IMG/VR virus record: IMGVR_UViG_3300025118_002664
Coordinates: 1 to 47,322 of that record
Origin: a virus
Length of the DNA: 47,322 nucleotides
Strand: one strand, 5' to 3'
The notes under the pieces were generated by a model, which was not told the DNA's origin, ran no database searches, and worked only from the letters and a program-made list of their open reading frames with translations. The position numbers and the translations under genes are program-made. Below, piece after piece: positions 20,844 to 25,642 of this stretch (its first letter is position 1; every line of letters starts with the position of its first letter).

Positions 20844-20858
20844 TAACATTTTAGTTAT
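20843..20858 (+). promoter_or_regulatory. Hairpin upstream of gp43, candidate translational operator
   Basis: ATAAC (20843-20847) and GTTAT (20854-20858) can pair around the loop ATTTTA, two bases before the GAGGG ribosome binding site of gp43. In T4, gp43 represses its own translation by binding a hairpin at the same place. This stem is short and A/U-rich, so the assignment is tentative. Confidence 0.35.
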
Positions 20859-20872
20859 GTGAGGGTAGCAAC

Positions 20873-23461
20873 ATTTACCAAAATATCTATCTAGCAAAAG
20901 ATAAGATTTATATATGGGATGATAAGAAAGGGTTTTATATCATTGATGCAAAAGAGTATCAATATGCCTATCGTAGAAATCCAAATGGAAGTCATGTAAC
21001 TTTCACCGGAGAACATTGTTCAAAGACGAGAAAATTTGAACGTGGAGAGGCCGGAGTTTTTGAAAGTGATCTTCCGTTAGAAACCAGAGTCTTAACAGAC
21101 ATCTATCTAGAAGATGATGAACCATCCGAAGGACACCGTTTGGTGTTCTTTGATATTGAGGTTTCTATGGAAGATAATCTTCCTAACGTAGAGACTGCTA
21201 ATAATAAAATTACTTCCATCGCTCTTTACGATCAAATCACAGATGAGTATCATGTTTTGGCTTTAGATGAATATGGGTCAAAAGACAATTATGATAAGGA
21301 CAATACCTACGTTAAATTCTTTTCAGATGAATACGATCTCCTTTCTTTCTTTTTAGATCTGTGGGAAGGCATAAACCCAACAATCATTACAGGGTGGAAT
21401 ACTAATTATTTCGATGTTCCATATCTCTATCGTAGATTAAGTGAGGTGTTGGGCAGGGGCCAGGCCAATAGACTTTCTTCTATTAATAAAGTTAAATTTT
21501 CCAAATACAGAAAGAAATATCAAATTGCTGGTATCTCTTCGTTAGATTATTTAGATCTTTATAGAAAGTTTACTTACATTGAACAACCCAATTATCGTCT
21601 TGATACGATTGGTAAGTTGGAAGTTGGAATGGGCAAGGTTGAATATGACGGTACCTTAGATGAACTGTTTGAACAAGACTTAGATAAATTTGTTGAATAT
21701 AATTTGACTGATGTAAAGATCGTTGTAGAGCTTGAAAAGAAAATGAAATTGATTGAGCTTGTCCGTGGTATCTGTCACATTGGTCATGTACAATATGAAG
21801 ATTATGGATTTTCATCTCGCTTTCTTGAGGGAACAATTGTAACCTATCTACATCGTAAGGGTTTGATTGTTACCGACAAACAGGCAAATGCACGACAGAT
21901 GATGAATGATCGTGATGATACTGATAAGTTTATAGGAGCCTATGTTAAAGTTCCCAATCCTTCAAAATGTGATTGGGTATTTTCTTTAGATCTACAGTCG
22001 CTATATCCTTCCATTATTATGTCTCTTAATATTTCACCAGAGACGAAGGTTGGGAGTGTTACTAATTGGAATAATAAGAGTTTTGTAGATGGTGAAATGG
22101 ATAAGTTTTCTGTTGAAACAGATGGGATAGTTGATTTAAATAGAGAACAATTTGATTCGTTTATGGCCGAACATAACTTAGCTATAAGTTCTAATGGTAT
22201 TTTATACCAACAAAATAAAAGAGGAATCATTCCAGAAATTCTTGAACGGTGGTTTGATCAGAGAATTGAATTTCAGAAGCTGATGAATAAACATGCAAGT
22301 GAAGGCGATATTGAAATGGCACAATTTTATGATCGCAGACAACACATTCAAAAGATTTTCTTAAATTCATTGTATGGTGTTTTGGGACTTCCTATTTTCA
22401 GATTCTTTGATTTGGATAACGCCGTTGCTGTCACTACTACAGGTCAGGATGTCATTAAAAATTCTGAGGTATTTGTGAATGATTTATTTGAACAGTTGGG
22501 GGCCGAACCAAAGAGTAGTGCAGAGTTGGCAAAATACGAATTAGCTCTCAAACAGGAAGCGGTTAAACGGAAAGAAAGATTTGTAGCTCCTTCAGAAAAA
22601 GATTGGTGTATTTACATTGATACTGATAGTTTATATTTTTCTTCCCTTCCACTGAAACATAAGTTGAAAGGGGATTTACAATCAGCTACAATTAAACTTT
22701 CTCGTTTTGTGGAACAAAAATTAAATGAACATTATGATAAGATAGCTGTTGATTATTTTAATTGTCCTAATCATAGATTTCATATTAAGGGTGAAATAAT
22801 TGCTAAGTCTGGAATTTGGATTACAAAGAAAAGATATGCAATGCTGAAAGTTTATGATTTAGAAAAGAATACTGAGATTGAACCTAAGTTGATTGTTAAG
22901 GGACTAGATATTGTTCGTTCAACATTTCCAATTGTTTTTAAAGAGTATATGAGAAACTTTATTATAAGTTTGTTGAACGATACGGACAAGATTGATATAG
23001 ATAAAGTGATGGTAGATTTTGTTGGTGGTCTTAAAGATGTTCCGTTTAGGAGGATTGCAAGAAACACAGCAGCTAAGAACGTAACGAAGTACAAAACATC
23101 AAATGATAGGTTGGGACATTATATGAAGAGTACTCCGATGCATGTAAAGTCGGTGATAAATTATAATCATCTTTTGAAAGAGTTTGGAATTGAAAAACAG
23201 TTCCCTCCAATCAATGATGGAGAAAAGATAAAGTATGTAATGTTACGACAGAACCCATATCATATTGATACTTTGGCGTTTAAAGATTACGAAGATCCTC
23301 CACAGATTGTGAAGTTTTTAAAAACGTATTCCGATCATCAAAGATTGTTTGATGCTGAGTTGAAAAAGAAGTTACAAGATTTCTATAATGCTTTGGGTTG
23401 GGGAGAGTTGCCCATCAACATTAAAGTTGATAGAAATATTTTAAATATGTTCGGTCTATGA
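20873..23461 (+). CDS. 43: Family B replicative DNA polymerase gp43, probable ATT start
   Basis: This is the phage replicative polymerase with proofreading exonuclease. From an ATT at 20873 it has 862 residues, close to T4 gp43 (898) and its marine relatives. The first conventional codon with clear family similarity on both sides is TTG at 21140, which would delete about 89 conserved residues such as YQNIYLAKDKIYIWDD and RVLTDIYLEDDEPS. The upstream frame is open and homologous-looking back to 20873, has no ATG, GTG or TTG before a TAG at 20852, and has GAGGG 7 bases before the ATT. Exonuclease motifs are FFDIE (92-96), NTNYFDVP (176-183) and YNLTDVKIV (276-284). Polymerase motifs are LDLQSLYPSI (372-381), KIFLNSLYG (494-502) and IYIDTDSLYF (580-589). 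Confidence 0.9.
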   Translation: MYQNIYLAKDKIYIWDDKKGFYIIDAKEYQYAYRRNPNGSHVTFTGEHCSKTRKFERGEAGVFESDLPLETRVLTDIYLEDDEPSEGHRLVFFDIEVSMEDNLPNVETANNKITSIALYDQITDEYHVLALDEYGSKDNYDKDNTYVKFFSDEYDLLSFFLDLWEGINPTIITGWNTNYFDVPYLYRRLSEVLGRGQANRLSSINKVKFSKYRKKYQIAGISSLDYLDLYRKFTYIEQPNYRLDTIGKLEVGMGKVEYDGTLDELFEQDLDKFVEYNLTDVKIVVELEKKMKLIELVRGICHIGHVQYEDYGFSSRFLEGTIVTYLHRKGLIVTDKQANARQMMNDRDDTDKFIGAYVKVPNPSKCDWVFSLDLQSLYPSIIMSLNISPETKVGSVTNWNNKSFVDGEMDKFSVETDGIVDLNREQFDSFMAEHNLAISSNGILYQQNKRGIIPEILERWFDQRIEFQKLMNKHASEGDIEMAQFYDRRQHIQKIFLNSLYGVLGLPIFRFFDLDNAVAVTTTGQDVIKNSEVFVNDLFEQLGAEPKSSAELAKYELALKQEAVKRKERFVAPSEKDWCIYIDTDSLYFSSLPLKHKLKGDLQSATIKLSRFVEQKLNEHYDKIAVDYFNCPNHRFHIKGEIIAKSGIWITKKRYAMLKVYDLEKNTEIEPKLIVKGLDIVRSTFPIVFKEYMRNFIISLLNDTDKIDIDKVMVDFVGGLKDVPFRRIARNTAAKNVTKYKTSNDRLGHYMKSTPMHVKSVINYNHLLKEFGIEKQFPPINDGEKIKYVMLRQNPYHIDTLAFKDYEDPPQIVKFLKTYSDHQRLFDAELKKKLQDFYNALGWGELPINIKVDRNILNMFGL

Positions 23462-23519: not shown

Positions 23520-24278
23520 ATGCAGAAGTCTTCAATTGAAACGTTTATTCAAAAGTACACACTTGGTGGAGCTATTAACTCTGTAACCTTGGATTCTACA
23601 AACGGAGCACTTTCCGTAAGTGGAGTTACACAGGATATGCAGGCAATGGCTTTTGTAAAGAGTGACAAACTTTCACTTCCTAGTGGAAGGTATTCTATTT
23701 ACGATACCTCTCAACTTCGTTCGTTGTTGGGAGTGTTTGGTCAGTCAGATGATATTAATGTGAACGTGGAAACATCACAGGATGTTCCAGTTGCGTTACA
23801 GATAGATGATCATCCATTTAATACTAAAGTAAAGTTTGTATTATCTGATCCACAAGTCATACCAGATGCACCCACAATTACCACTTTACCAGATTTTAAT
23901 TTGACAATTCCGTTTGATGAAGAATTTATGTCTCGTTTTGTTAAGGCAACATCTGCTCTTTCAGAAGTGGATACATTTACTATAATATCGGGAACACAAC
24001 AGGCAGATGGTCATACTTCTAACGCCGACACCACATTGGTTATTGGATATACAGATATGAATACAACTCGTATTTCTCTTGGAGTAGAGTCATTTGGCGG
24101 CCTTGAAAAGAAATTAACTTTTTCTGCCAGGTATTTGAAAGATATATTTTTGGCTAATAAAACAGCGAAGACAGGAAATATTGAGGTTTCCAACAGTGGT
24201 CTTCTTTCTATTAAGTTTGATGATGGGGGTTTTATTTCTGAGTATTATCTTGTTAAAATTAGTAATATTGTAATCTAA
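23520..24278 (+). CDS. 45: Sliding clamp gp45 (DNA polymerase processivity factor)
   Basis: This 252-residue clamp subunit is expected to trimerise around DNA and tether gp43; in T4 it also activates late transcription. Recognisable family features are the N-terminal KSSIETFIQKY helix, FVKSDKL, the YSIYDTSQLRSLLGVF interdomain stretch and the C-terminal block FSARYLKDIFLANK followed by EVSNSGLLSIKF and EYYLV. T4 gp45 is 228 residues, so this is slightly longer. GAGG precedes the ATG. Its stop overlaps the next start (TAATG), coupling it to the DruA-like gene. Confidence 0.9.
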   Translation: MQKSSIETFIQKYTLGGAINSVTLDSTNGALSVSGVTQDMQAMAFVKSDKLSLPSGRYSIYDTSQLRSLLGVFGQSDDINVNVETSQDVPVALQIDDHPFNTKVKFVLSDPQVIPDAPTITTLPDFNLTIPFDEEFMSRFVKATSALSEVDTFTIISGTQQADGHTSNADTTLVIGYTDMNTTRISLGVESFGGLEKKLTFSARYLKDIFLANKTAKTGNIEVSNSGLLSIKFDDGGFISEYYLVKISNIVI

Positions 24279-25642
24279 TGATTAGATCTGTAATAGACCA
24301 CGATGTTGTTGATATGTTCTTTCAGAACAGTACAGCATTTGATTTTCATAAGGATAAGGAATCTCTTATTAAACATATGGCTTCTTTGAAGACACAAGGT
24401 GTTGAAGAATCTACACTTTATAAAAAGTGGGTAGAATTAAAACAACTTGACAATACTAAAGAAGTTGTATCTACTGGTGCTCTTATGGGCAGATTGTGGA
24501 CTCCTACTGATATCTTTGATAAAGAAAGAACCATTGAGGAAATTGACAATCTGAAACCACAGGTTGTTATTTGTAAAGAAGGAACCACCGATTACGATGA
24601 TTGGAAGTATTTGAGAATGTTAATCTCAAGCTTTGAGTTTTCTATTGGTATTGGTAGACTTATTAAAATCTTGATTCTAGATGAAAACACTGGTAAAGTT
24701 CTTGGAGTGTCTTCTATTGCTTCTGACGTTATTTCTATTGGAGTTAGAGATAATTGGATCGGGTGGACTAAAGAAGATAAGTTTGAAAAGAGTAAGTTGA
24801 ATCAAACTTGTATTGGTTCTACGATTGTACCAACACAACCATTTGGTTATAACTTTCTTGGTGGTAAATTAATTGCTTCTCTTCTTTGTACTAATGATGT
24901 TCGTGATGCTTGGGAAAATAAGTTTGATCAGAAGTTAGTAGGAATGACAACAACTTCTTTATATGGTGGTCATTCTATGTACCAAAGAATTCCTTTCTGG
25001 AAAGAACTTGGTCGAACTACAGGACGGATTCTTCTTAAACCAGACGATGAACATTTTGAAAAGTGGTCAAAGTGGTTGAAAGAAAATCATCTTCAAGAAT
25101 ATGAACATGCAAGTTGTGGTAAAGCTGGAACGGTTTCTAAACAAAATGATAAGTGGGTATGGACATTTCAAGATACAATCCGTGAACATGCTGACACTAG
25201 AGATGAACTTGTTGATGAATTAGCTAAACAACGGTTTTCTGTCCACGACACTAATATTGTCCACGATCTTCGTAGTAAGTTAGTTCATCCACCCTCCGGT
25301 CCAAAACAAAATGTACTTAATAGAATTTATAGTCACCTTGGTATGAAGTCTTCTGATTATGTTCATGGTTTTAAAAGAGGAGTTTATTTTGCTCCGTTCT
25401 ATGAAAACACCAGAGAATATTTGAGAAGTGAGATTGAAGAATCGGAATTGATTGGTTCAAAGAAATTGGAAAATGATGTTGATGATGTAATGGATTGGTG
25501 GAAACCCAAAGCAATTAGACGGTATACCAACCTTCTTGAACAAGATAGAATAAGACCAGAACATCTTTATTATCGTGATATGATTCAAATGAGAACGTGG
25601 GAAGAAGTACAACAAAAATATATGTCTCAGGTAGGAAGATAA
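24278..25642 (+). CDS. DruA-like (DUF4338) protein in the clamp operon
   Basis: This 454-residue protein has a core (about 125-250) matching DUF4338, the family of Druantia defence protein DruA. It shows GRLIKILILD, KVLGVSSIASD, VRDNWIGWTKED, a LGGKLIASLLCTNDVRDAW block, then VGMTTTSLYGGHSMYQR and LGRTTG, in the same order as in DruA proteins. The C-terminal 200 residues are charged and less familiar, with W/K-rich pieces (EKWSKWLKENH, DWWKPKAIRRYTNLLE). The biochemical activity of DruA is not known to me. Because it lies between clamp and clamp loader and is translationally coupled to gp45, a DNA-replication or DNA-protection role is inferred instead of classical defence. No druB-E partners are present. 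Confidence 0.75.
   Translation: MIRSVIDHDVVDMFFQNSTAFDFHKDKESLIKHMASLKTQGVEESTLYKKWVELKQLDNTKEVVSTGALMGRLWTPTDIFDKERTIEEIDNLKPQVVICKEGTTDYDDWKYLRMLISSFEFSIGIGRLIKILILDENTGKVLGVSSIASDVISIGVRDNWIGWTKEDKFEKSKLNQTCIGSTIVPTQPFGYNFLGGKLIASLLCTNDVRDAWENKFDQKLVGMTTTSLYGGHSMYQRIPFWKELGRTTGRILLKPDDEHFEKWSKWLKENHLQEYEHASCGKAGTVSKQNDKWVWTFQDTIREHADTRDELVDELAKQRFSVHDTNIVHDLRSKLVHPPSGPKQNVLNRIYSHLGMKSSDYVHGFKRGVYFAPFYENTREYLRSEIEESELIGSKKLENDVDDVMDWWKPKAIRRYTNLLEQDRIRPEHLYYRDMIQMRTWEEVQQKYMSQVGR

Follow-up and report, generated by a model that had tools for sequence, protein, structure and literature searches.

The window, a 47,322-nt stretch of viral DNA, encodes gp43, a T4-type family B DNA polymerase (Table 1). 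The product matches Pfam families PF00136 (DNA_pol_B) and PF03104 (DNA_pol_B_exo1), both above cut-off, together with PHROG 262 (E = 1e-176) and 2062, and its residues 88–397 align by sequence with residues 108–435 of RB69 gp43 structures. Pfam, PHROG and the RB69 structures thus all place it, with its exonuclease and polymerase domains, among the T4-type gp43 proteins. Among family records with more sequence, each contains a single family B polymerase locus. The gene directly after gp43 (23520–24278) is gp45-like by position alone; it occurs in 120 related loci and gave no family match in Pfam or PHROG. Between it and a clamp-loader-like ATPase lies a 454-aa ORF (24278–25642) with a Druantia DruA domain (PF14236, E = 3e-27), homologues of which are found near gp43 in other loci. 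No phage tRNA genes turned up in the window or in any of 20 loci, the majority of them fragments.

Table 1 Features of the gp43 locus (window coordinates)
Feature	Position	Strand	Remarks
Small upstream ORF, 56 aa	20673..20843	+	Stops 29 nt 5' of ATT; conserved in relatives L001 and L002
In-frame TAG bounding the gp43 start region	20852..20854	+	Counterpart TAG at L001:2980
GAGGG, Shine–Dalgarno-like site	20861..20865	+	Ends 7 nt 5' of ATT; GAGGGT kept in L001
ATT, start codon of gp43	20873..20875	+	Homologous position 1 (xYQNIY)
gp43, T4-type family B DNA polymerase	20873..23461	+	862 codons, ATT through stop
TTG, first canonical in-frame start of gp43	21140..21142	+	Codon 90 from ATT; unlikely true start

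The gp43 start region

The initial annotation had held that no ATG, GTG or TTG precedes the block homologous to other polymerases, and that GAGGG sits 7 nt before an ATT codon apparently serving as the start. Reading the frame codon by codon (TAG, TTA, TGT, GAG, GGT, AGC, AAC, ATT, TAC, CAA, AAT) bore out the first two points: between the bounding TAG and the TTG at codon 90 there is no in-frame ATG, GTG or TTG. The distance from the upstream in-frame stop to a canonical start is 95 codons for gp43, compared with at most 18 for the other 47 window ORFs, and gp43 is the sole ORF without a canonical start among the 48 plus-strand ORFs of the window that reach 90 aa. With the anti-Shine–Dalgarno (anti-SD) sequence of E. 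coli standing in for that of the host, GAGGG forms a duplex of −6.1 kcal/mol. In the window (20861–20884) and in the leaders of a clade of relatives with ATA starts, the SD can also pair with codons 2–3 (UAYC) in a small hairpin that holds the start codon in or near its loop; this pairing is not significant compared with shuffled sequences.

The closest relatives indicate where translation begins. L001, from a separate metagenome, encodes a gp43 with 89% amino acid identity to that of the window and retains ATT, GAGGGT and the in-frame TAG; a canonical start is likewise absent there. Codons 2–89 have a dN/dS of 0.12 against L001 (pS 0.42), compared with 0.13 in the remainder of gp43, and because purifying selection is equal in the two parts, we conclude that codons 2–89 are translated. 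ATT also occupies the homologous start in L131–L133 (68% identical) and L286, and synonymous sites are heavily diverged or saturated across these ATT-keeping relatives. In L002, L003 and Microcystis phage Mel-JY01 the codon at this position is ATG, which in L002 follows a moderate AGGA at 8 nt. Aligning the N-terminus with relatives, as had been proposed, showed that homologues begin at the ATT position, with ATT or ATG there; their alignment with the window gp43 runs from residue 1, and residue 2 aligns to position 5 of the phrog_2062 profile. A loose DNA pattern scan (GAGGGTA..CATTTA) matched many unrelated contigs.

These comparisons bear on two other ways in which gp43 could start. Translation from the TTG at codon 90, with a non-coding frame upstream, would have the merit of using the first canonical in-frame codon. 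However, that TTG lies just past the equivalent of RB69 residue 108, and starting there would delete the counterpart of RB69 residues 1–109; moreover, the first internal canonical codon varies from 14 to 91 codons in among homologues that start with ATT, ATA or ATC. Given the dN/dS of codons 2–89 and the homology from residue 1, we ruled out this internal start, to which we give almost no weight. The second possibility is that an out-of-frame ATG at 20857, followed directly by TGA in a shift-like context, supplies the start through a programmed frameshift or bypass. By contrast, the nearby ATG of L001 is in another frame relative to gp43, and the ATA-clade leaders have no ATG near the start. 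As the frames are not conserved, this very improbable route was also rejected.

An assembly error at the ATT, which would have undone the initial annotation, is contradicted by L001: a relative from another metagenome keeps the codon despite diverged synonymous sites, which excludes such an error. It is also ruled out by the recurrence of ATT, ATA or ATC in 43 distinct loci from many metagenomes. The non-canonical start of gp43 is neither chance nor an assembly error, and ATT as the start codon is strongly supported by its position and its conservation, by the spacing of the SD, and by purifying selection.

Start codons and Shine–Dalgarno sites across the gp43 family

The start codon could be read in 196 distinct gp43 genes, obtained from polymerase-query searches of viral contigs, a genome search and one phage record; nearly all of these loci are metagenomic contigs from uncultured viruses. 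Their start codons are ATG (106), TTG (47), ATA (23), ATT (18) and ATC (2), with no GTG. In the 43 loci with ATT, ATA or ATC at the homologous site, no canonical codon lies between the upstream in-frame stop and the start, and the first one downstream is 14–91 codons in. A FastTree phylogeny of the 196 loci requires no fewer than 28 switches from ATG to non-ATG starts or back, and at least 17 between ATT/ATA/ATC and ATG/TTG. Two smaller trees, built with IQ-TREE from 82 and 134 rows, agree in kind, with 10 and 26 changes over all codons.

The start codon and the SD vary together. We scored an SD as strong when its duplex with the E. coli anti-SD, which may not be that of the hosts, had an energy of −4.5 kcal/mol or lower and lay between positions −16 and −4, a threshold fixed on the first 134 loci. 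A strong, well-placed SD precedes all 42 scorable ATT/ATA/ATC starts, so that the non-canonical start is conserved in relatives together with a strong SD; the same holds for 34 of 47 TTG starts but for only 2 of 106 ATG starts, leaving 104 ATG loci without one. The two exceptions, L205 and L206, have their SD at 12–13 nt. In 24 tree-independent contrasts, 17.8 were for a trade-off and 0 against it (median p = 8e-6). Among 62 loci fetched later, which belong to the same family and are partly related to the first 134, a strong SD was scored in 0 of 29 ATG loci and 29 of 33 non-ATG loci (p = 1e-13, relatedness ignored). Many ATG loci have an SD-like GGGGA 12–15 nt upstream that was scored as misplaced, and the contrast between ATG and non-ATG is therefore smaller, though still significant, with a wider SD window. 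The switch can be seen directly in related leaders, as in GAAGAGGTATAGCT-ATA of the ATA clade versus TAGGGAAATTACAACCTAA-ATG of L218, or TGGAGAAATACATAG-TTG of L382 versus TGGAAAGTTATAATATAA-ATG of L383. In the ATG loci L194–L198, L230, L325 and similar ones, an in-frame TAA or TAG stands directly 5' of the ATG, with a recurring TATAATCTAA or TACAACCTAA.

As controls we used gene families flanking gp43 in these loci (nine families, of which seven were scored; 293 ORFs). ATG starts 278 of 290 control genes, TTG 10 and GTG 2, with no ATT, ATA or ATC. Three of the 293 ORFs lack a canonical codon close to the consensus column that was chosen; in all nine families every member has a canonical first codon, and the late ones reflect divergent N-termini. 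The gene directly 3' of gp43 starts with ATG in 120 of 120 copies and has a strong SD in 84%. Control families 3, 4 and 6 combine ATG with a poor SD, and a poor SD alone is thus not special to gp43.

Most family members have a promoter-like TTGACW-N17/18-TATATT pair ending 27–41 nt before the gp43 start; in shuffled upstream sequences, the best match has one mismatch in 0.9% and two mismatches in 9% of cases. In much of the family the N18 form lies 27–32 nt before the start (for example, L164:2440–2500), which predicts a short leader. The pair is absent next to gp43 in the window and L001; in the window, gp43 is therefore probably carried on a transcript that begins further upstream. L002, unlike these closest relatives, has an extra stretch (L002:2905–3000) with TTGACA-N17-TATATT just 5' of gp43 and an ATG start. 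In some loci the ATG closely follows a TATAAT-like box, which raised the question of leaderless mRNAs; this reading was set aside because the TTGACW-N18-TATATT pair 27–41 nt upstream is common to non-ATG loci as well.

Proposed control of gp43 initiation

We propose that selection holds gp43 initiation low, either through a weak start codon or through a weak or misplaced SD, and we put the probability of this sequence-based reading at roughly 0.78. In the window, AUU at 20873 would be read by initiator Met-tRNA with the help of GAGGG. Across the family, low initiation could be reached by two routes: UUG, AUU, AUA or AUC behind a good SD, or AUG preceded by an SD that is weak or lies at an unsuitable distance. 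In gp43, ATG is almost never combined with a good SD, the combination that the neighbouring gene normally has, and from this we infer that gp43 output is low and is kept so by selection. The earlier suggestion of deliberately weak translation appears to fit the pairing, in 196 homologues, of non-AUG starts with strong SDs and AUG with weak or misplaced ones. Part of this pattern may be ordinary compensation, given that compensation between start codon and SD is general in prokaryotes (PMC5622118).

That point could be taken further: the AUU start might be real and initiation normal, with drift producing non-AUG codons in AT-rich phages whose SD was strengthened or already strong. Across prokaryotes, GUG and UUG starts are known to be offset in this way by stronger SDs (PMC5622118); TTG and the ATH codons (ATT, ATA and ATC) are AT-rich; and ATG with a poor SD occurs in some other families of the same contigs. 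However, genes on the same contigs, strong-SD families included, rarely leave ATG and never for ATT, ATA or ATC. The scarcity of strong SDs at gp43 ATG loci (2 of 106, against 84% in the all-ATG next gene) also weighs against it, as relaxed drift would not hold ATG and a strong SD apart. We therefore regard drift without selection for low output as unlikely.

A structured RNA operator at the gp43 start could instead be the real control, the start codon being a by-product. The gp43 proteins of T4 and RB69 each bind a hairpin operator close to the ribosome-binding site of their own gene (PMC3014915), and the SD is able to pair with codons 2–3 in the window and the ATA clade. Against this, folds are weak (z-scores of −1.5 to +1.7), the pairing is a consequence of the SD together with the UAYC that Tyr-Gln fixes, and the alignment of one clade showed no compensatory changes. 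An operator of this type is improbable here.

If initiation is held low by the codon in the window, discrimination by IF3 against AUU would be the likely cause of lowered gp43 output. The dependence on initiation-factor level raised in the initial annotation is plausible in view of known IF3 biology (PMC5472188). A stronger version, which we regard as unlikely, is that AUU, AUA and AUC tie gp43 output to the host IF3 level or ribosome state in infection. IF3 represses initiation at the AUU of infC and at the GTC of Streptomyces sigR (PMC5472188), and in S. aureus AUA or AUU with a strong SD cuts output, dependent on growth conditions for ccpN (PMC13009471). In the gp43 family, by contrast, TTG and weak-SD ATG alternate with ATH, so that IF3 sensing is not universal, and no IF3 gene (IF3_C) was found in 17 related viral records, mostly fragments. 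It is a tentative idea that this T4-type phage family sets polymerase dosage at initiation and that AUU, AUA and AUC tie that dosage to host IF3 or ribosome state; if true, phage DNA synthesis would sense the translation machinery during infection.

Under our preferred reading of selection for low initiation, the family would be a natural experiment in tuning the initiation rate: a single essential phage gene has gained or lost an AUU, AUA or AUC start at least 17 times, the AUU/AUA/AUC versions with strong SDs and the AUG versions with weak ones. This suggests a cost to the phage of making polymerase in excess. In practical terms, gene callers restricted to ATG, GTG and TTG would trim up to 90 residues from these polymerases, and could thus overlook AUU, AUA or AUC starts elsewhere in phage genomes.

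Comparison with known non-canonical starts

An internal AUU start occurs in T4 gene 26. We found no report of a phage replicative polymerase with an AUU or AUA start in the literature searched, mostly non-subscription papers. AUU and AUA starts otherwise count as textbook rarities. In one survey, a single AUG-to-AUU switch was recorded among 61,358 ancestral AUG starts (PMC5622118). To the non-canonical starts known, those of infC, pcnB, sigR and some S. aureus genes, the phage polymerase, as read from sequence, appears to add a further variant.

E. coli infC, which the initial annotation had invoked as a self-limiting precedent, resembles gp43 in its AUU start, against which IF3 discriminates (PMC5472188). 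The analogy is not directly transferable: infC feeds back on IF3, whereas gp43 is a phage polymerase whose codon has switched repeatedly among relatives and, not being IF3, cannot close such a loop itself. An infC-type autoregulatory loop would need IF3 as the gene product or a phage-encoded IF3; gp43 is a polymerase, and no IF3 gene was found in the 17 viral records, mostly fragments. E. coli pcnB, like gp43, encodes a nucleic-acid enzyme and is limited translationally by AUU (Binns and Masters 2002, cited in PMC13009471); pcnB is a host gene and a single known case, whereas gp43 switches recurrently within a family. Streptomyces sigR likewise combines a conserved rare start with a conserved strong SD and is repressed by IF3 (PMC5472188), but its codon is GTC, it was tested experimentally and it concerns a single lineage. 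In S. aureus, cvfC1 (AUU) and ccpN, citZ and infC (AUA) pair these codons with an extended SD, and AUU and AUA starts lower output in reporters (PMC13009471); these are bacterial genes, for which we found no account of alternation with AUG and a weak SD. T4 and RB69 gp43 are members of the same gene family, and there too polymerase translation is limited near the ribosome-binding site (PMC3014915). In T4 the limit is an autogenous protein–RNA operator, whereas here it appears to lie in the start codon and the SD.
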